A stretch of 55,253 nt of DNA from Bacteroidales bacterium (GTDB lineage Bacteria; Bacteroidota; Bacteroidia; Bacteroidales; UBA932). This document shows, one piece after another, positions 45,879 through 55,253 of this stretch (positions within the stretch are counted from its first letter, which is position 1; each line of letters begins with the position of its first letter). The notes below the pieces were generated by a model, which did not search any database, was not told the origin of the DNA, and saw nothing but the letters and a program-made list of their open reading frames with translations. Made by a program: the position numbers and the translations under genes. The stretch lies in assembly GCA_028700975.1 (NCBI GenBank), contig JAQVRQ010000006.1, forward strand, positions 1-55,253, read 5' to 3'.

Positions 45879-46472
45879 CTATTTGTTCATCAATCCATTT
45901 AACATTGCATAGACAGTAAGACCGGAAATACTTTTTATTCCGGTCTTTTTAATAATATTTTTTCTGTGAGACATTACTGTATGAACAGATATATTTAGCT
46001 TTTTGGCAATCTCTTTATTAGTCTTTCCATTAGCTACATAAACTAGTACATCTTGCTCTCTCTCTGAGATGTCATACATTTCTGAATTGATATCTTGACT
46101 CTTAACATTTTCTTCCGTAACAAGAATTCTAATAATTGATATGATTTCTGAATTGGACATATAGAGATTTAGTAACGAATCGAATCCTGATAGAAGTGAA
46201 GGTGGGAGGCACGATGTTGGCATTGCTATCAGCTTTGATTTAAAACCCAAATCATTCAATCTTCTTTTTATTGACAATTCAGAATCACACAACATTGGGT
46301 TAATTATAATCACAGAGGGTGAGTCTTCAAAATTATAGCCACAAAATTGATCTAATGAGTCAAACTTAAATACAGGATGAAATAACAATGATGTATCTGT
46401 AATTGCCTTAGCCAGTCCCTCTCTTATGATATTTGATGGTTCAATTATCACCAAACTCCCTACTCTTTTCAT
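45879..46472 (-). CDS. LuxR-type regulator with a degenerate receiver domain
   Basis: This DNA-binding protein (197 residues) has an N-terminal receiver-like domain (about 5-115) and a C-terminal LuxR/NarL helix-turn-helix (about 132-195). The HTH includes SEREQDVLVYVANGKTNKEIAKKLNISVHTVMSHRKNI. The receiver lacks the phosphorylation chemistry: the acidic pair reads IEPSN, Asn58 stands where the phospho-Asp should be (IIINPML), and the conserved Lys is not recognisable. It is therefore probably not controlled by a histidine kinase. The start lies 2 bases after the hemerythrin gene's stop, so the two are coupled. The terminator of the convergent alcohol dehydrogenase gene lies within its 3' coding part. 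Confidence 0.88.
   Translation of the reverse strand: MKRVGSLVIIEPSNIIREGLAKAITDTSLLFHPVFKFDSLDQFCGYNFEDSPSVIIINPMLCDSELSIKRRLNDLGFKSKLIAMPTSCLPPSLLSGFDSLLNLYMSNSEIISIIRILVTEENVKSQDINSEMYDISEREQDVLVYVANGKTNKEIAKKLNISVHTVMSHRKNIIKKTGIKSISGLTVYAMLNGLMNK
45918..45950 (+). terminator. terminator of the alcohol dehydrogenase gene, inside an antisense gene
   Basis: A perfect 10-bp stem (45918-45927 with 45938-45947) and a 10-base loop are followed by more T, 44 bases after the dehydrogenase stop. The same bases encode the HTH C-terminal helix region of the LuxR-type regulator on the other strand. Confidence 0.78.
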
Positions 46473-46474
46473 TG

Positions 46475-47176
46475 TTATAAAGTTCTGTAACTCTTTTCAA
46501 GAAATTCAACGTGAGGAACTAGGAGATTATCTTCAAGATAAGCATGACTCTCAAATTCAGATTGTAGTATGTAAAGATCCTCTACCAAATCATAGAGAGC
46601 TGGATGAGGATTTTGTGATGGGAAGTATTTCAAAAGAATGTTTTTAAGATCACTAATTTTAGACTCAATGTTTGTATGATTCTCCTCAAACTTCTCAATA
46701 GAATATCCGGGATATATTTTACCATCAATTACCCCTGAAATATACGGAAATACTATACTATCCTCATATTCAAAGTGAGAAATTAGTTCAGACTTATACT
46801 CTTCAAAGAAATTGATAAAAATTGTTGAGTGAGAATTTTGGAAATCACTTTTTAATGCTATTTCTTTAATTAGAATCTCAACTTTTGGTATATCATTTAA
46901 AATAAATTCACTATGAGTTTTTTTAAGATAGTTTATAAGTTGTTCTGTAGGCAGAGCTTTAAGAGATTCTACATCTGGAAAAAAATCCCTGAATAATGAC
47001 ATATTAACAAGAATTATAAATAATTCAGGAGAAACAATATTTGATATACATACATCTTTAATACTTTTATTCCCAAAGCCTGGTTTTATCCCAAGTCTCT
47101 TTAACACTCTTAATATTTTATAATTCTCTTCTACTATTGTAGATAGTTTTTTATCAGAGGTAATATAAGAAGTCAT
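46475..47176 (-). CDS. hemerythrin-domain protein (ScdA/RIC-like)
   Basis: The protein (233 residues) contains a hemerythrin-like four-helix bundle for a diiron centre. Candidate ligands are the His of KKTHSEF (near 90), HFEYED (near 135-140), the His of EENHTN and the HAYLEDNLLVPH segment near the C-terminus. An N-terminal region of about 80 residues (IVEENYKILRVLKRLGIKPGFG) resembles the DUF1858-type helical segment seen in RIC/ScdA iron-centre repair proteins. The family senses or detoxifies oxygen or nitric oxide, or repairs iron-sulphur centres. It is directly coupled to the LuxR-type gene and divergent from the chemosensory operon over 91 bases, so it may supply a redox input. Confidence 0.86.
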   Translation of the reverse strand: MTSYITSDKKLSTIVEENYKILRVLKRLGIKPGFGNKSIKDVCISNIVSPELFIILVNMSLFRDFFPDVESLKALPTEQLINYLKKTHSEFILNDIPKVEILIKEIALKSDFQNSHSTIFINFFEEYKSELISHFEYEDSIVFPYISGVIDGKIYPGYSIEKFEENHTNIESKISDLKNILLKYFPSQNPHPALYDLVEDLYILQSEFESHAYLEDNLLVPHVEFLEKSYRTL

Positions 47177-47267: not shown

Positions 47268-47729
47268 ATGAATCAAGATAATCTTACCGTACTATTAATT
47301 GGCATTGCAAATTTAAATTTCTCTTTTCCTGTTGAGATGATTGAAAGGGTCATCCTAGCTCAAGACATTTCTCCGTGCGACAATACAAATAGTTTAGTAA
47401 TTGGTGTTATAAATATTCATAGTGAAATTATTCCCGTTATCTCATTAAGAAAGAGGTTTTCTCTTCCAGAGATTGAAATTAAATCAGATAATTTCTTAGT
47501 AATTCTCTCATTCAAAAATATAAAAATTGCTATTATTGCTGATAGTGTAAGTGGCATAATTAATATCTTAAGATCTGATATTAGAGAATATACCGAAATT
47601 CTTCCTGGAATGAGTGAGCTCCAATTTGTAACACACTCAGATGGTATATATTACATTTACAATTCAGAGAATCTCCTATCCACTACCGAGGAGGAGAGCA
47701 TAAGAGATTTGCAAAAATATGATGACTGA
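47268..47729 (+). CDS. cheW: CheW-like coupling protein (WspB position)
   Basis: CheW proteins link receptors to the CheA kinase. The 153-residue protein is a single CheW domain. It begins LTVLLIGIANLNFSFPVEMIERV and contains the typical GVINIHSEIIPVISLRKRF and IAIIADSVSGII strands. It is the first gene of a seven-gene chemosensory operon, and its end overlaps cheR by 11 bases. No clear promoter was found in the 91-base divergent gap in front. The operon order places it at the WspB position. Confidence 0.92.
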   Translation: MNQDNLTVLLIGIANLNFSFPVEMIERVILAQDISPCDNTNSLVIGVINIHSEIIPVISLRKRFSLPEIEIKSDNFLVILSFKNIKIAIIADSVSGIINILRSDIREYTEILPGMSELQFVTHSDGIYYIYNSENLLSTTEEESIRDLQKYDD

Positions 47730-49170
47730 AAATGTAGCAAAAAATATTGCAAAGCTTATAGAGTCATCAATGGGACTCACATTTCAACCAAACAGATTTT
47801 CAGAGTATACTAAACAACTCAATAGTGTAATTAAAACTCTTGGTTACGATAATCTTGATGCCTTTTATGCAAAAATTTCTCGATCAAACAATTCTTTATC
47901 ATTAGATGAAAAAAAAATAATTGCTACACATCTAACAGTTAGTGAAACTTATTTTTTTAGAGAGGCACCAGCAATCTCAATGTTTAAAAATAAAATAATA
48001 CCTGAAATTATCCGGAAAAAAAATGGTTCATTAATTACAATCTGGTGTGCAGGTTGTAGTTCAGGCGAGGAGCCTTACACTCTTTCAATGATTCTTAAAG
48101 AAAACTTCCCACAGCTATCTTCTGAGAACTACAAAATAATTGCAACAGATATCAATCCTAATGTTTTAGAGAAAGCCAAAAATGGCATATATACTCAATG
48201 GTCCTTCAGAGAAATGCCAGATAAATATTTAAAAAAATACTTTGTAAAAGAGGGAAATAATTATAAAATATCTGATAGGATCAAAAACAGTGTCATTTTT
48301 GAATTCCTCAATCTGGCTTCTGATCCATTTCCAGGTGAATCTTTAAAAGATGAACCAATTGACATAATATTTTGCAGGAATGTTTTAATGTATCTTAATC
48401 ACGAAATTATTAAAAAAATTGCTCAAAGATTTTATAATATTTTAAATGATAGTGGATGGTTTATTCCAAGTCAGGTTGAGCTAAATGATGAGTTTTTCGG
48501 CCATTTTAATAAGATTTACAGTGAAGATGCCGTTTTTTATAAAAAGGAGAAGAACGAAACTACCAAATTAATCTTCCCTTTTTCTCTTAATAAGACTGAT
48601 AAATGTATTGTAAAAAAGACTAAGCCTATTAAGGATAAAAAGAGTTTTGAATCTGTAAATTATAATAAAGAAAAGGAAAACACGTTCAGCAATAGTCAAT
48701 TAGAAAATTTATTCTCAGACGGAAAATACAAAGAATGCATTGAAATATCAAAGGAAGAGATAGAGACTGGAAGTAATAACGTTTTTTTATTGCAAACAAT
48801 TGCCAAATGTTATGCCAACACAGGAGAGTATGAGAAGGCAATTTTACTATTGGATCAGTTGATTTCAAAAGGGGGATCATCTGATGATATTTTTTATCTT
48901 TATGGTACAATTCTAATAGAACAAAACCAGATTGAAGAGGCTAAAGCAATGTTCAAAAAAGGGCTATATATGAATTCCGAACACCTACTTTCGCATCTTA
49001 TGCTCGGTAATATTCTAAGAATTGAAGGAAATAATCGTGCGGCCTCTATCCATTACAGAAATGTCTATGAAATTTCACTTAAGATAAAAGATGACGATTT
49101 AGTGAGGGTAAGTGGTGGATTAAACGGAGAACGAATCCGTGAATTAGTTGAAAAATACATTAAACACTAA
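47719..49170 (+). CDS. cheR: CheR methyltransferase with C-terminal TPR repeats (WspC-like)
   Basis: CheR methylates glutamates of the receptor using S-adenosylmethionine. The 483-residue protein has a CheR N-domain (about 1-75, ending TVSETYFFRE at 73-82), a methyltransferase domain with SAM motif IWCAGCSSGEEPYTLSMIL (about 108-126) and DIIFCRNVLMYL, a linker rich in Lys and Asn (about 280-330), and TPR repeats (about 330-475, e.g. NTGEYEKAILLLDQLISKGG). A TPR tail is the hallmark of WspC and FrzF-type methyltransferases, not of the classical chemotaxis enzyme. One spare base separates it from the next cheW. Confidence 0.93.
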   Translation: MMTENVAKNIAKLIESSMGLTFQPNRFSEYTKQLNSVIKTLGYDNLDAFYAKISRSNNSLSLDEKKIIATHLTVSETYFFREAPAISMFKNKIIPEIIRKKNGSLITIWCAGCSSGEEPYTLSMILKENFPQLSSENYKIIATDINPNVLEKAKNGIYTQWSFREMPDKYLKKYFVKEGNNYKISDRIKNSVIFEFLNLASDPFPGESLKDEPIDIIFCRNVLMYLNHEIIKKIAQRFYNILNDSGWFIPSQVELNDEFFGHFNKIYSEDAVFYKKEKNETTKLIFPFSLNKTDKCIVKKTKPIKDKKSFESVNYNKEKENTFSNSQLENLFSDGKYKECIEISKEEIETGSNNVFLLQTIAKCYANTGEYEKAILLLDQLISKGGSSDDIFYLYGTILIEQNQIEEAKAMFKKGLYMNSEHLLSHLMLGNILRIEGNNRAASIHYRNVYEISLKIKDDDLVRVSGGLNGERIRELVEKYIKH

Positions 49171-49171
49171 A

Positions 49172-49675
49172 ATGAATAAAGACTCTGAAATACTTCATAA
49201 AAGGGCATTAAATAATGCATTAAGACTAAAAACAGATGAGAACGAGGTCAAAGTGGACTATTTAGTTTTTAGGGTCGTTAAGGAGTTATATGCACTTGAG
49301 AAAAAGTGGGTTAAGGAGGTTGTTAAAATTAACAGTTTTACCAAGATTCCTGGTACACCGGAATTTGTTACAGGTGTTTCAAATGTTAGAGGTATAATAT
49401 ACTCTGCAATAAACATTAACAGATTCTTATCATCAAAAGAATTTGGTCTTTCTGATCTTAACAAAATGATTATTATATCTAACGGAGAGATTGAGTATGG
49501 AATTTTAGCTGATGAAATTATTGGGTTCTCTGAAAATTTAGTTGATGTTAAATCTGAAATACCTGATAACTACAGCAATATCTACAAAGAATTTATCATT
49601 GGCATAACTACAAATAGTATATTAATTCTAAATGGAAAAGCATTAACTGAAAATAAAAAAATAATTATTGAATAA
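49172..49675 (+). CDS. cheW: second CheW-like coupling protein (WspD position)
   Basis: This is a second single-domain CheW (167 residues from MNKDSEILHK) with a short charged N-terminal extension (about 1-30). Typical strands are YLVFRVVKELYALEKKWVKEV, FVTGVSNVRGIIYSAINI and YGILADEIIGFSE. I start it at 49172, one base after the cheR stop. A Met at 49148 is in frame but lies inside cheR. Having two CheW proteins flanking CheR is the Wsp arrangement. Confidence 0.92.
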   Translation: MNKDSEILHKRALNNALRLKTDENEVKVDYLVFRVVKELYALEKKWVKEVVKINSFTKIPGTPEFVTGVSNVRGIIYSAININRFLSSKEFGLSDLNKMIIISNGEIEYGILADEIIGFSENLVDVKSEIPDNYSNIYKEFIIGITTNSILILNGKALTENKKIIIE

Positions 49676-49676
49676 A

Positions 49677-51170
49677 ATGGAAAAAATCTTCAAATTTAAA
49701 ACTCGAGGTAAAATGATTATTGGGTTTACAATTGTTGTCGCTGCAACAATTTTTTTCTCAGTAATCTCATATACAAATCATAATCGAATGAATAAAGTAA
49801 TTCAAGAGAATACACTTCTTGATACTCTTGCATATGAGTTAACCGGACTTAGAGCTGACGAAAACAGACTAAGAGCACTAAGCCTGGAAGCATTATTCTA
49901 TCCTGAGAGATTAACAAAAACAGATCTTCATAATAAGATAAACCAGAAACAATATGATATTTTACAGAAAAGCAGAGGATTGGACAGCCTGCTAAAGCCA
50001 TATCCACAGCAGTTACTATTAATGAAGGATCTCTCGATAGATGTAAGAAAGTACGTAGAAAATAGAGATAAAATGATCTCTATGATATTAATGGGCGAAA
50101 AAGATAGTGCAAACGATATCGTCAACAAAGAACAAGACTCTCTATATGAGTTAATAAGAGATAAATCAATAGTTATTGAAACTCAACTTTTGGAAATGAA
50201 AGCAAAAACTGAAGCACTTACAATAAAAGCCGAAAGAATTGTAGTTTGGCAGCTTCAGGTTTTAGGGGGTATTTTAATCCTTCTTGTGATTTCAATGGCA
50301 ATATGGACATTACGAATTGTAAGAAAGATATCGGCAGAAATAAAAGCTGGTATAGATATACTAGGAAATGCCTCAACTGATATTCTAAGTGCTGTTACAG
50401 AAATATCAGCAGGTGCAGCAGAGACATCGACTGCTGTAACTGAAACAACCACAACAATTGAAGAGGTAAGACAAACTGCTATGGTATCTAACCAAAAAGC
50501 ACAGTCTCTTATGGAAAGCTCTCAAAAGGCATCAGATTCAGCAGATAAGGGCAGAGATTCAGTTAAAATGCTTATAGAGTCTATTCAACACATTGATAAA
50601 CAGATGAATCTTATTTCTGAAACTGTAGTAAAGCTATCTGAGCAAAATAGAACAATTGCAGAAATCACATCAACTGTTGCCGACATTGCTGATCAATCAA
50701 ATCTTTTGGCAGTAAATGCTGCTATTGAGGCTGCAAAAGCAGGTGAGCACGGAAGAGGATTTACAATTGTTGCTCAGGAAATACGCTCTTTAGCAGATCA
50801 GTCGAAAAAAGCCACACTGCAGGTCAAAGAGATACTTAATGAAATAAACAAATCTGTAAACTCAACTGTTGGAGTTACAGACCAAGGTTCAAGAAGTGTT
50901 ATAGAGGGAATTAAAAGAGTGAAGGAGAGTGGTGAAGTAATTGATATCTTAGCAGATAATGTAGAGGATGCGGTTGAGGCAGCTATACAGATATCTTCAT
51001 CAACAAGACAACAGATGGCCGGGATGGATCAAATAGTACCAGCTATGGAGAATATTAAACGAGCTAGTGAACAGAATGTTACTGGAATAAATCACACACA
51101 GGATACTGCTCATAAAATTCATCAGCTAGGAAGAACTCTAAAATCAATAATTATTAAATACAACCTTTAG
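49677..51170 (+). CDS. methyl-accepting chemoreceptor (WspA-like)
   Basis: This inner-membrane receptor (497 residues) has TM1 at about 12-33, a mainly helical periplasmic region (about 35-187, four-helix-bundle type) and TM2 at about 189-210. A long cytoplasmic coiled-coil follows directly. A HAMP domain is not evident. The signalling hairpin tip (about 335-370: DQSNLLAVNAAIEAAKAGEHGR and the rest of the conserved glycine hinge region) is intact. There is no C-terminal CheR-binding pentapeptide, and the protein ends KSIIIKYNL, consistent with a CheR that docks by TPRs. An in-frame TTG at 49668 is rejected because the ATG follows the cheW stop by one base, as at the other junctions. Confidence 0.93.
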   Translation: MEKIFKFKTRGKMIIGFTIVVAATIFFSVISYTNHNRMNKVIQENTLLDTLAYELTGLRADENRLRALSLEALFYPERLTKTDLHNKINQKQYDILQKSRGLDSLLKPYPQQLLLMKDLSIDVRKYVENRDKMISMILMGEKDSANDIVNKEQDSLYELIRDKSIVIETQLLEMKAKTEALTIKAERIVVWQLQVLGGILILLVISMAIWTLRIVRKISAEIKAGIDILGNASTDILSAVTEISAGAAETSTAVTETTTTIEEVRQTAMVSNQKAQSLMESSQKASDSADKGRDSVKMLIESIQHIDKQMNLISETVVKLSEQNRTIAEITSTVADIADQSNLLAVNAAIEAAKAGEHGRGFTIVAQEIRSLADQSKKATLQVKEILNEINKSVNSTVGVTDQGSRSVIEGIKRVKESGEVIDILADNVEDAVEAAIQISSSTRQQMAGMDQIVPAMENIKRASEQNVTGINHTQDTAHKIHQLGRTLKSIIIKYNL

Positions 51171-51175
51171 AAGGA

Positions 51176-53332
51176 ATGTCAATTAATCAGGATGAGTTCT
51201 TAAAAGAGTTGCTCAATGATTTCAGGCAAGAAGCCGAAGAACATCTCTCTTCAATTGAAGAGGGAATATTAGAGCTTGAAAAAAATGGTGCGACTCCAGA
51301 TTTCTCTGTTTTAGAGCGAGTATACCGAGAGACTCACTCTCTAAAAGGTGCTGCTAGAGCTGTAAATCTGTCAGATACAGAAAAAGTCTGTATGAGTATG
51401 GAGAACGTGATGAACACATTAAAAGAGGGTGAAGGCATACTATTTGATTCGCTCTTTGAGGTGATGCAAAAATCTGTTGACACATTAAGACTGATGCTAT
51501 CTAACCTAAAAGAGAGCGGAACAGAGAAAAAACTCCCAAATCTGATACAGTTACTAAAGAACCTAAATTTTATTCAAAAGGAGTCGGTTAGGAGAAAGAA
51601 TGGAACAGTCCTAAAAGATGATATTGTTGAAATAAAGAGTAGAGAAAATTTTCAAATAAATAAATCTGAAATTATCCAAATCCCAAATATTCCAGTTAAA
51701 GTTGATCTTGAAAATGAAACAATCCGAGTCTCCGCTTATAAACTGAATAATGTTTTATCTCAGAGTGACGATTTTCTCGCAATCAAAACAACTTTATCAT
51801 TTTATAAAAAAGAGTTAGAAGAGATAAAGCAAAAGATAAATGATGAAAGGCTTGATAATTTATACGGAGACCTATCACGTTTTATTCACGTAGCTAATAG
51901 AATGGTAGACGACCTCATAATTAATGTAAAGTCAACACTTCTGCTCCCATTTTCAACAATCTTAAATATTGTACCTCGCGTTGTAAAGGATCTGAGTAGA
52001 GATAAGGGTAAAGATATTAATATTGAAATAACTGGGGAACACTATGAAATTGACAAACGAATACTAGAAGAGATTAAGGATCCAATTATTCATATTATTA
52101 GAAATTGCGTTGATCACGGAATTGAAAATTCTAATGAGAGGATAAAAGCGGGAAAAAAACCAGTTGGTAACATTTTAATACAAATTACAAAAGATGCAGA
52201 TGCGAAGTTGTCATTATTAATAAGTGATGATGGTGAAGGAATAAAACTAGATAAAGTTATAAAGTCTTCGGTAAAACTTGGTATTATTAGCAAAGAAGAA
52301 GCCTCTGAAATGCCTGATAAAGAAAAAGTCAACCTAATTTTTTCTTCTGGAGTTTCATCAAGTGAATTGATAACTGAAATTTCCGGAAGAGGCTTGGGAA
52401 TGGCAATTGTTGCTGAAAAAATTTCTAATCTGGGTGGAACTATAACTGTTGATACAATTGAAGGAAAAGGCACTTCATTTTCGATTAAGATTCCTCAAAC
52501 CATTGCTACGTTTCGTGGATTATTAGTGAGAAGTGGAGAAAACAAATATCTCATTCCAAATATCTTTGTTGAAAAGGTAATCGGCGTTGCGGACTCAGAT
52601 ATTATTAGTTCAGGCAATAAACCATCTGTATATGTCTCCGGAGCATACATTGGTATTATCGGGTTATGTGCCTCTCTTGGAATTAAAGAGGCACCAGTTT
52701 CTACTAATAACAAAAAGCCAGCACTAATTCTTAGCTCAAATAGAAAACAAATGGCATTTTTAGTTGATGAGATTATTGAGGAGGTTGAGGGTATAGTTAA
52801 ACCTCTTGGAAAGCAGCTTAAAAAGATATCAAAAATCACTGGAGTTACTATGATTGGAAATGGAATTCTAATTCCGGTTTTAAATGTCACTGAATTAATT
52901 GAGAGCTCAACTAGAGCAGAGTTTAATGAGCTATCGCAAACCACTCAGTTTAATGGTTTAAACAATCAAAAGCAAAGAGTGCTAATAGTGGAGGATTCTA
53001 TCACTGTAAGGAGTATGCTTAAGAGTATTGTTGAAAATGCCGGTTATGAGACTGAAGTTGCTGTTGATGGTATTGATGCTTTCAAGAAACTTAATGATGG
53101 TAATTTTGATGCTGTTGTAACGGATATTGAAATGCCCAATATGAATGGATTTGAACTTACTTCAAAAATTCGTAATGACGATAAATTCTCTGAAATGCCT
53201 GTAATTTTAGTAACGACGCTTGAGTCACCAAAAGATATGCAAAAAGGTTTAGAATCTGGCGCAAATGCTTACATTGTAAAAGGAAGTTTTGAGAAAAGCA
53301 ATTTAACAGATACCATCAGGAGATTAATATAA
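51176..53332 (+). CDS. cheA: CheA kinase fused to a receiver domain (WspE-like)
   Basis: The 718-residue hybrid has an Hpt/P1 domain with phospho-acceptor His54 in RETHSLKGAARA and a short linker without a recognisable P2 domain. Dimerisation and ATPase domains follow (N box IIRNCVDHGIE, G1 SDDGEGIK, G2 GRGLGMAIV), then a CheW-like regulatory domain (about 440-575) and a C-terminal receiver (about 600-718) with acceptor Asp650 (VVTDIEMPNMNG). Kinase and receiver in one chain is the WspE/FrzE/ACF form. The lack of P2 fits the absence of a separate CheY in the operon. The gene starts 5 bases after the receptor gene. Confidence 0.94.
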   Translation: MSINQDEFLKELLNDFRQEAEEHLSSIEEGILELEKNGATPDFSVLERVYRETHSLKGAARAVNLSDTEKVCMSMENVMNTLKEGEGILFDSLFEVMQKSVDTLRLMLSNLKESGTEKKLPNLIQLLKNLNFIQKESVRRKNGTVLKDDIVEIKSRENFQINKSEIIQIPNIPVKVDLENETIRVSAYKLNNVLSQSDDFLAIKTTLSFYKKELEEIKQKINDERLDNLYGDLSRFIHVANRMVDDLIINVKSTLLLPFSTILNIVPRVVKDLSRDKGKDINIEITGEHYEIDKRILEEIKDPIIHIIRNCVDHGIENSNERIKAGKKPVGNILIQITKDADAKLSLLISDDGEGIKLDKVIKSSVKLGIISKEEASEMPDKEKVNLIFSSGVSSSELITEISGRGLGMAIVAEKISNLGGTITVDTIEGKGTSFSIKIPQTIATFRGLLVRSGENKYLIPNIFVEKVIGVADSDIISSGNKPSVYVSGAYIGIIGLCASLGIKEAPVSTNNKKPALILSSNRKQMAFLVDEIIEEVEGIVKPLGKQLKKISKITGVTMIGNGILIPVLNVTELIESSTRAEFNELSQTTQFNGLNNQKQRVLIVEDSITVRSMLKSIVENAGYETEVAVDGIDAFKKLNDGNFDAVVTDIEMPNMNGFELTSKIRNDDKFSEMPVILVTTLESPKDMQKGLESGANAYIVKGSFEKSNLTDTIRRLI

Positions 53333-53339
53333 TTCGCTA

Positions 53340-54419
53340 ATGAAAAAAGAGACTCACAAATTGGTAAGAGTTTTAATTGCAGATGACTCCTCTGTTGGGA
53401 GAAGACTTCTTGCAGGTATACTCTCACAAGACCCGTTTATTGAGGTAGTAGCAATGGCCACTGATGGTAAAGAAGCTCTTGAACTGACAATTAAGCACAA
53501 ACCGGATGTTGTGAGTATGGATATTAATATGCCGGTAATGAACGGAATAGAGGCCACTAGAAGAATTATGAGCGAATCTCCTGTACCGGTAATAATCGTT
53601 AGTAGTATATATAGAAATTCAGATGTCTTAACCGCAATAAGCGAGTTGGAGGCAGGTGCAGTAATGGTTCTTCCTAAACCACACGGACCAGGACACGAAT
53701 CATTTGAGTCATCATCTGCAAAATATATAAACTCTGTCAAACTAATGTCAGATGTGAAGGTTGTTAGAAGACAATTAAACGGGAACGGAACTGCAAAAAA
53801 AATAACAACAAATCACTTAAGAATTCCTCATTCAGAGACCTGTAAAGTTAATAATAAAGCAAAAATAGTTGTAATCGGCTCTTCAGCTGGAGGTCCTGAA
53901 GCACTTAGATTTTTTCTAACCCAAATATCAACTGAATTTCCGCTTCCAATAATACTTGTTCAGCACATCGATTCGAATTTCATAAATGGTTTTGTCTCCT
54001 GGCTAAACACATTTTCAAATATTAGAGCCTTTATTGCACAAAATGGCGAAAAACCTGAAAGGGGAAAGCTTTACTTGCCTCCGCCGGATTCTCACATTGC
54101 AATTGTTAATGGCACAATTACAATTATGAATGGTGACAATATTAATTCTCTTCATAAGCCCTCTGTAGACATACTTTTTAAAAGTGTAGCGAGGTATTAT
54201 TTAGAAAATTCTGTTGGAATCATCTTTTCTGGAATGGGAAGAGATGGTGCAGATGGTCTAAAAATGATGAAAGATTCAGGGGCTTTTACATTTATTCAAG
54301 ATAATGAATCATCCCTAATTTATGGAATGCCTGGTGAGGCACTTAAAATTGGTGCTGCTTGCGCAGTTTTATCACCAAAAGAGATGGCAATCAAACTAAA
54401 TCATATATATTCAAAATGA
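53340..54419 (+). CDS. cheB: CheB methylesterase (WspF-like)
   Basis: CheB removes receptor methyl groups and resets the signal. The 359-residue protein has an N-terminal receiver with acceptor Asp61 (VVSMDINMPVMNG), a linker (about 135-172) and the methylesterase domain with catalytic Ser182 (VVIGSSAGGPEA), His209 (VQHID) and Asp302 (GMGRDGADG). In the Wsp system phosphorylation of this receiver by the kinase activates demethylation. The stop TGA overlaps the next gene's ATG (ATGA), showing tight coupling. Confidence 0.94.
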   Translation: MKKETHKLVRVLIADDSSVGRRLLAGILSQDPFIEVVAMATDGKEALELTIKHKPDVVSMDINMPVMNGIEATRRIMSESPVPVIIVSSIYRNSDVLTAISELEAGAVMVLPKPHGPGHESFESSSAKYINSVKLMSDVKVVRRQLNGNGTAKKITTNHLRIPHSETCKVNNKAKIVVIGSSAGGPEALRFFLTQISTEFPLPIILVQHIDSNFINGFVSWLNTFSNIRAFIAQNGEKPERGKLYLPPPDSHIAIVNGTITIMNGDNINSLHKPSVDILFKSVARYYLENSVGIIFSGMGRDGADGLKMMKDSGAFTFIQDNESSLIYGMPGEALKIGAACAVLSPKEMAIKLNHIYSK

Positions 54420-55253
54420 ATAATAGCAGAATTTCAAGATTATTAGGTAGTAGACATATTGTAGCTTCAGAGGACTCACTTGTACAAGCAAAGAGACTTG
54501 AATATCTGTTTAAGAAAAATGAGATTAATTATAAAATCTTCAATAATGCATCTGATGCGTACGAATCAATAATTGTGTCTAAGCCTGCCTTGATCATAAG
54601 TGATGTGGTAATGCCCGGAATGGATGGTTTTGAATTTTGCACAAAAATCAAAAGCAACAAATCGCTAAGCAATATTCCAGTTATGTTATTAACAGCGCTG
54701 CAGGACTCTGACGATATTATTAAAGGGCTTCAGTCTGGTGCTGATAACTTTGTAACCAAACCATATGAGGAGTCTGAAATTCTTGAGCGTATTGAACATC
54801 TTCTTGAAAATCGTGAAATTGAATCTATTTCAGAAGATAGTGGGGAGATAAATCTTAAGTTTCGAGGAAATGAGTATAAAATTACCTCATCAAAGCGGCA
54901 AATTATTGATCTCCTAATATCTGTATATGAAACAGCATCAAAAAGAAATAGCGAATTAACAGATATTAAATCTCAACTGGAGAGGTCGAATATTGAATTA
55001 CAACAAGCAAATAATGATTTGGAATCATTCTCTCGCTCTGTTTCTCACGACCTTAAGTCTCCTCTTTCTGTTATAATGGGATTTGCATCCGCAATTTTAG
55101 ATAACCCCAATAGCAAGATCTCTGATGAAGAGAGAGAATTTATGGGATATATTAACGAATCTGCGGAGGAGATGTCTCAACTCATTAAAGATTTACTGGC
55201 ATTTTCTCAATCAGGAACCACAGAATTGAAGAAGGAGTTTGTAGATATTTCAG
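54416..55253 (+). CDS. receiver-histidine kinase, probable system output (partial, runs off window)
   Basis: The frame is open from the ATG at 54416 to the window end (279 codons). An N-terminal receiver (about 13-135) has the acidic pair Glu19/Asp20, acceptor Asp63 (ISDVVMPGMDG), Thr93 and Lys115 in VTKPYEES. A linker with a conserved ITSSKRQIIDLL block and a coiled coil (about 165-205) leads to a HisKA domain with phospho-His211 in SVSHDLKSPLSVI. The ATPase domain must lie beyond the window. Its position as last gene, coupled to cheB, is where Wsp operons carry the diguanylate cyclase WspR. Here the receiver drives a kinase instead. Confidence 0.9.
   Translation, partial: MNNSRISRLLGSRHIVASEDSLVQAKRLEYLFKKNEINYKIFNNASDAYESIIVSKPALIISDVVMPGMDGFEFCTKIKSNKSLSNIPVMLLTALQDSDDIIKGLQSGADNFVTKPYEESEILERIEHLLENREIESISEDSGEINLKFRGNEYKITSSKRQIIDLLISVYETASKRNSELTDIKSQLERSNIELQQANNDLESFSRSVSHDLKSPLSVIMGFASAILDNPNSKISDEEREFMGYINESAEEMSQLIKDLLAFSQSGTTELKKEFVDIS

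Follow-up and report, generated by a model that had tools for sequence, protein, structure and literature searches.

A kinase-ended chemosensory operon with a single receptor in a Bacteroidales genus

The 55,253-bp contig JAQVRQ010000006.1 of a Bacteroidales bacterium ends in an operon of seven chemosensory genes. The contig was analysed over its whole length and is referred to as the window; it is contig C4 of genome G000, an assembly of 1.95 Mb in 130 contigs. From 5′ to 3′, the operon contains cheW, a cheR with a tetratricopeptide repeat (TPR) tail, a second cheW, a receptor gene (mcp), a cheA with a receiver (REC) domain, cheB, and a gene for a REC-HisKA kinase. Judged from its sequence, it is real, conserved, and functional-looking; it is of the kinase-ended alternative cellular function (ACF) type and is not Wsp by published criteria. 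We consider it likely that the operon encodes a single-receptor, adapting ACF-type chemosensory system, whose kinase-ended phosphorelay leads to an unlinked response regulator and serves gene regulation and not motility. Gene content, gene order, catalytic motifs, and conservation are observed directly; which regulator is involved and what is sensed belong to the part of the reading that we infer.

The seven genes are consecutive on the + strand, run from position 47268 to the contig end, and lie between 11 bp of overlap and 7 bp apart (Table 1). Their order reads B-C-D-A-E-F-kinase in Wsp letters. The first-pass annotation, made from the DNA letters, had described seven tightly packed chemosensory genes, including two CheWs and a receptor with two transmembrane segments, and Pfam matches and hydropathy bear this description out. 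The whole genome contains three CheW-domain matches, all inside the operon, and the receptor provides the sole MCP-domain match in the assembly. Receptor, CheW, and CheA, together with CheB and CheR, make up the core of an ACF cluster. Phospho-acceptor and catalytic motifs can be recognised in CheA, CheB, CheR, and the terminal kinase. CheB contains the Ser, His, and Asp motifs. CheR carries the sequence GCSSGEE, which we take to be the SAM-site motif, and its tail matches TPR models over the cut-off at about residues 352–422. The start of cheW2 was judged from an ATG located 1 bp past cheR.

Table 1. Genes of the operon in the window. Domain calls are Pfam matches over the cut-off.
Gene	Position	Strand	Product and domain matches
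cheW1	47268..47729	+	153 aa, WspB-like coupling protein; PF01584 7.3e-21
cheR with C-terminal TPR tail	47719..49170	+	483 aa; PF01739 1.4e-49 at 76-248
cheW2	49172..49675	+	167 aa from likely ATG start; PF01584 5e-19
mcp	49677..51170	+	497 aa; PF00015 (MCPsignal) 5e-33, PF12729 (4HB_MCP_1) 2e-7
cheA with C-terminal receiver	51176..53332	+	718 aa; P1 (Hpt), HATPase, CheW-like, REC
cheB methylesterase with receiver	53340..54419	+	359 aa; PF01339 1.2e-53, PF00072 2.2e-21
REC-HisKA kinase, first 279 codons	54416..55253	+	PF00072 4.3e-22, PF00512 5.3e-14

The window ends inside the kinase gene. Its last 127 bases (55127–55253) recur, letter for letter, at the start of contig C58 from the same genome when C58 is read as its reverse complement; this exact overlap looks like an assembly-graph break and not a gene end. 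On this strand of C58, the reading frame of the kinase continues for ~138 further codons to a stop and carries the ATPase part. A relative of the kinase in genome G013 has the architecture REC-HisKA-HATPase_c. The last gene had been annotated as a receiver protein at first pass; it is instead a REC-histidine kinase cut by the contig end, the output of WspH-type systems and not the REC-GGDEF output of WspR-type systems. Over 19 kb of C58 beyond the kinase, neither a further che match nor a lone receiver-sized match was found, in a search that did not include CheC, CheD, CheX, or genome-wide stand-alone receivers.

CheA possesses H54, the N-box, the G boxes, and D650, all of which vary little or not at all in an alignment of 13 CheAs. 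In this alignment, every sequence has the P1 histidine and, in the receiver, the aspartate and the lysine. The Pfam models of the P2 and dimerisation domains both gave no match in CheA.

The receptor is composed of two transmembrane segments, a periplasmic four-helix bundle (4HB), and a signalling hairpin. A HAMP domain gave no match in the window receptor up to an E value of 5. The hairpin is symmetrical, with 145 residues from the second transmembrane segment to the tip and 146 from the tip to the C-terminus, and it seems to begin at the membrane. Each arm of about 145 residues corresponds to roughly 20 heptads; heptad class 40H, typical of receptors in ACF-type clusters, is a candidate class for this one. 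A Glu pair (262–263) and a Gln pair (445–446) are invariant in 16 receptor sequences and are likely methylation sites. The C-terminal residues IIKYNL do not resemble the kind of pentapeptide tail to which CheR binds. An AlphaFold model of the receptor has a mean predicted local distance difference test score of 71.7 and a predicted template modelling score of 0.39. The periplasmic helices are modelled with confidence, and a single helix spans residues 142–255 through the membrane, with low confidence beyond about residue 210. Foldseek returned nine matches to the model at E 0.001 or better, all of them chemoreceptors and none hinting at a ligand. The operon of G060, from elsewhere in the order, encodes two adjacent receptors (L048:11401-14593), of which one contains HAMP and the other lacks it; each has its hairpin tip 145 residues from the end.

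CheA was searched for in 99 genomes, comprising 25 of the genus (the window's own included), 34 others of the family, and 40 others of the order. Strong matches (E < 1e-100) are present in 14 of the 25 genus genomes, in one of the other family genomes (G035), and in two of the other order genomes (G060 and G065). The first-pass annotation had proposed following the gene order in related Bacteroidales. The order from cheW1 to the kinase is whole in ten of the 14 genus carriers (G000, G002, G011, G012, G013, G016, G017, G019, G022, and G024), and the remaining four (G003, G005, G008, and G009) are cut by a contig end and agree as far as visible. A fifteenth genus genome, G020, shows just the edge of cheW1 at a contig end. 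The cheR of G019 is divided into two overlapping frames (L044:6814-8170), reflecting either a frameshift or an assembly error. MCP matches are found in 13 of the 25 genus genomes, one in each and all in CheA carriers; G008, the fourteenth carrier, is cut inside cheA. CheA also matches more weakly elsewhere in the order, for instance in G064, G074, G086, and G094. The two clusters of this weaker kind that were read, those of G086 and G081, contain short genes the size of a receiver next to cheA, and their CheRs lack a tail of TPR length.

A quick tree of 95 CheAs sets the window CheA apart from the flagellar CheA of E. coli, the placement expected of an ACF-type CheA; E. coli is the sole named flagellar-class row, and the tree holds no function-tested ACF reference. 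The window CheA falls in a group of 15 rows, supported by a Shimodaira–Hasegawa-like approximate likelihood ratio test (SH-aLRT) value of 100, that contains Bacteroidota, one Ignavibacteria-titled row, and relatives from the genus and order. This group is nested in an 89-row group (SH-aLRT 99), together with clusters of the same gene order. CheAs from Sinorhizobium meliloti and Alteromonas plasmids join next, on a branch to 91 rows (SH-aLRT 99). Beyond that branch lie the CheAs of E. coli and Deferribacter and those of G086 and G081, the Bacteroidales clusters with short receivers.

Two placements in the tree are unusual. The CheA of locus L047 (G035:C31), which belongs to another genus of the family and is cut by a contig end, nests within the window's genus (SH-aLRT 97), hinting at a possible transfer between genera. 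Locus L121, titled as a Klebsiella pneumoniae metagenome-assembled genome, has a CheA of the same type, placed among rows that are mostly betaproteobacterial; it is perhaps a mislabelled or mixed bin.

The same gene order recurs across many phyla. Eighty named loci were chosen by CheA similarity among the matches listed, and their counts are not a survey. Outputs were scored roughly, with our own profiles and a text pattern for GGDEF. The arrangement W-R-W-M-A-B is complete in 29 of the 80 loci, and many others are cut by a contig end; for the loci of the CheA search with a Bacteroidota-type title it is whole in 9 of 16, the rest being mostly cut in the same way. A full REC-histidine kinase lies next to cheA or cheB in 35 loci and a partial one in 7. 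Nine loci have a GGDEF output and one has both. The remainder display a receiver match only (15), are cut or have no output in reach (12), or have another output (1). Locus L064, scored as none found, contains a GGDEF-pattern gene and a receiver/kinase match farther along.

A plasmid search for named Wsp references returned no gene named wsp. It yielded one cluster each from S. meliloti and Alteromonas, the region around a Deferribacter cheA, and a stretch of Novosphingobium DNA that carries no annotation. The S. meliloti plasmid cluster (L195:156-15224) consists of cheR-cheW-mcp-cheA-cheB amid Tad/Flp pilus genes.

In the pathway we propose, the HAMP-less 4HB receptor, the two CheWs, and CheA would form the signalling core, with the state of the receptor setting CheA activity. 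CheR-TPR and CheB would tune receptor methylation and thereby provide adaptation. Phosphate from CheA would reach CheB, the receiver of the terminal kinase, and CheA's own receiver, which probably serves as a sink. The terminal kinase would in turn either phosphorylate or cease to phosphorylate an unlinked response regulator, which most likely binds DNA. The direction of phosphate flow is presumed by analogy with WspH and Che3.

Several points weigh against this proposal. It was reached from sequence, and no cognate response regulator was identified. The completeness of G000 is 86%. For the CheA tree, the program flags both the long branches and the uneven composition, and a single named flagellar-class CheA anchors the comparison. 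In addition, GGDEF outputs in 9 of the 80 loci, or 10 with the mixed one, indicate that the kinase is not the sole output attached to this gene order.

The nearest described analogues are the WspH system of Burkholderia and the Che3 system of Rhodospirillum centenum. In the passages of PMC8552884 covered here, WspH is a REC-histidine kinase that replaces WspR in a wsp set, and the tested mutants show no change in cyclic di-GMP (c-di-GMP). The wsp mutants of B. cenocepacia have altered colony form and biofilm with c-di-GMP unchanged. RowR, a DNA-binding regulator, is implicated in that species, and how WspH contacts RowR is left unsettled in that paper. The present operon and the WspH system share two CheW-type proteins, a methyltransferase, a receptor, a CheA-REC, a methylesterase, and a REC-histidine kinase, but wspH apparently forms a separate upstream unit there and the set follows the wspA–F order. 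According to the same passages, Wsp occurs solely in beta- and gammaproteobacteria and WspH solely in Burkholderia, on the basis of wspA–F synteny and at least 30% identity. The wspA–wspF synteny of either Wsp type is absent from the present operon, in which the receptor gene lies between the second cheW and cheA; because of this, there is no conflict with the exclusivity statement in those passages. By our comparison, kinase-ended cousins are widespread beyond these groups.

Che3 offers a second parallel and, among precedents that have been tested, the closest one. According to the part of PMC3868531 covered, CheA3 phosphorylates the receiver of the kinase CheS3, and for the CheA3-CheS3-CheY3 pathway the authors propose that this phosphorylation switches CheS3 off. 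Like the present operon as we read it, Che3 combines a CheA with REC, a second REC-bearing kinase, and a non-motility output. Unlike it, Che3 has a stand-alone CheY3, a PAS domain in CheS3, and control over cysts. CheS3 perhaps has more than one receiver, judging from the name REC1 in the same text.

The first-pass annotation had treated a TPR-tailed CheR and a CheA with its own receiver as specific to Wsp. Both are more general: a receiver is present on about 35% of CheA homologues (PMC10782961, in the part covered), and CheR-TPR occurs mainly in ACF clusters generally, as stated in the covered passages of the survey by Munoz-Martinez et al. (2012, PMC3447774). These passages also report a HisKA-HATPase module on about 40% of the response regulators in cheR-TPR clusters. 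The present operon resembles such clusters in joining CheR-TPR with a multidomain response regulator; the taxa that the passages covered mention by name do not include Bacteroidetes. Among the open-licence literature matches listed, no paper was recognised on such an operon in Bacteroidota, which is no proof of absence. The kinase-ended ACF-type operon is of a known and widespread kind, and its single receptor and the missing usual outputs among those searched for are somewhat interesting.

The operon had been called Wsp-like at first pass and credited with the same protein set as Pseudomonas Wsp. With that WspR-type system it does share the core B, C, D, A, E, F, including two CheWs, CheR-TPR, CheA-REC, CheB, and a 4HB receptor; the output gene and gene order differ, a kinase taking the place of a WspR or other REC-GGDEF counterpart. 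GGDEF is present in none of the 25 genus genomes, with 8 of 14 control genomes positive. A true Wsp system, in which the receptor senses surface contact and a WspR-type diguanylate cyclase responds by making c-di-GMP, is therefore scarcely credible, and the GGDEF search and kinase domain reject it as far as GGDEF enzymes go. Control of surface movement by gliding or type IV pili appears quite improbable. Other chemosensory systems affect surface behaviour, the S. meliloti relative lies among pilus genes, and the PilT model matches weakly, below its cut-off, five times across the genus, once of these in carrier G022. However, PilT over the cut-off is found in 0 of the 25 genus genomes, as is FliM, the only flagellar family searched (4 of 14 controls positive), and GldL is found in 1 of 25, the operon-less G018, with none of the 14 controls positive. 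Gliding, which had been suggested as a controlled behaviour, is unlikely since GldL occurs only in that genome. The G018 match (G018:C5:139159-139896) is on the same contig as the dehydrogenase-patatin site described below. The FliM search revealed no sign of the flagellar genes that mark F-class chemotaxis. The earlier view that the system does not serve swimming is supported by CheR-TPR, CheA-REC without a P2 match, the kinase-type regulator, the FliM result, and the separation of CheA from that of E. coli.

The neighbours of the operon suggest two further partners. A patatin-like phospholipase gene (Pfam 3e-40) begins within a few bases after the kinase stop on C58; among the 13 carriers with a visible kinase end, 10 have it no more than about 20 bases away from the kinase. 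The phospholipase could be the effector of a pathway controlling lipid turnover, which we regard as unlikely. It is not next door in carriers G008, G016, and G017, and it directly adjoins a dehydrogenase gene (aldDH) in operon-less G006, G010, and G018. In operon-less G007 and G021, four other genes separate the two. The aldDH gene is also found upstream of cheW1 in all 12 carriers, of 14, with that side visible, and in G020. The operon thus occupies one site, and the patatin gene is an old neighbour whose place, to judge from these five operon-less genomes, is independent of the operon; this empty-site comparison rejects it as an eighth member or specific partner. The other candidate is a divergent pair encoding a hemerythrin (RIC-like) and a LuxR-type protein, located at 45879–47176 of the window, which might belong to the pathway through redox or nitric oxide signalling. 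The pair sits between aldDH and cheW1 in the window and in G013, but among the carriers read it is intact beside the operon only there. It is also among the four genes between aldDH and patatin in operon-less G007 and G021, and the N-terminal half of the LuxR protein has no receiver match at E 0.001. Membership of the pair in the pathway is very unlikely, and it was rejected as a partner, not being co-distributed with the operon in the loci read. A short luxR match stands alone beside aldDH in G011 and G024 (L170:1369-1491; L171:2680-2802).

An aldDH tree of 22 genomes, 14 of them labelled as carriers with G020 included, requires the presence of the operon to change three times. It is compatible with a single gain and two losses; three losses are an alternative, since the tree is midpoint-rooted.

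The preferred reading, a kinase-ended ACF-type system devoted to gene regulation, would extend kinase-ended chemosensory operons, described in detail for WspH and Che3, to a Bacteroidales genus with small genomes, where the output can be neither c-di-GMP made by GGDEF enzymes nor any motor that was searched for. Having a single receptor, a single CheA, and a single terminal kinase, it would be a simple case for the role of an adapting array in gene regulation. The chances are about even for a broader proposal, that an apparently non-motile, GGDEF-less Bacteroidales lineage kept, as its sole chemosensory array, one HAMP-less receptor linked through CheR/CheB adaptation to a kinase-to-kinase relay. 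The array would then be a transcription sensor that adapts and stands alone, with an H-type output beyond the Proteobacteria.

Rfam identifies two tRNAs in the window and nothing else. A shared gene 3′ of the kinase was considered as a clue to the output and rejected, the genes scanned in other loci being unrelated. The gene in this position has no family match in L091 and in G060; elsewhere, it encodes an alpha-galactosidase (L077 and L082), a beta-CASP protein (L109), or an IMS polymerase (L073).

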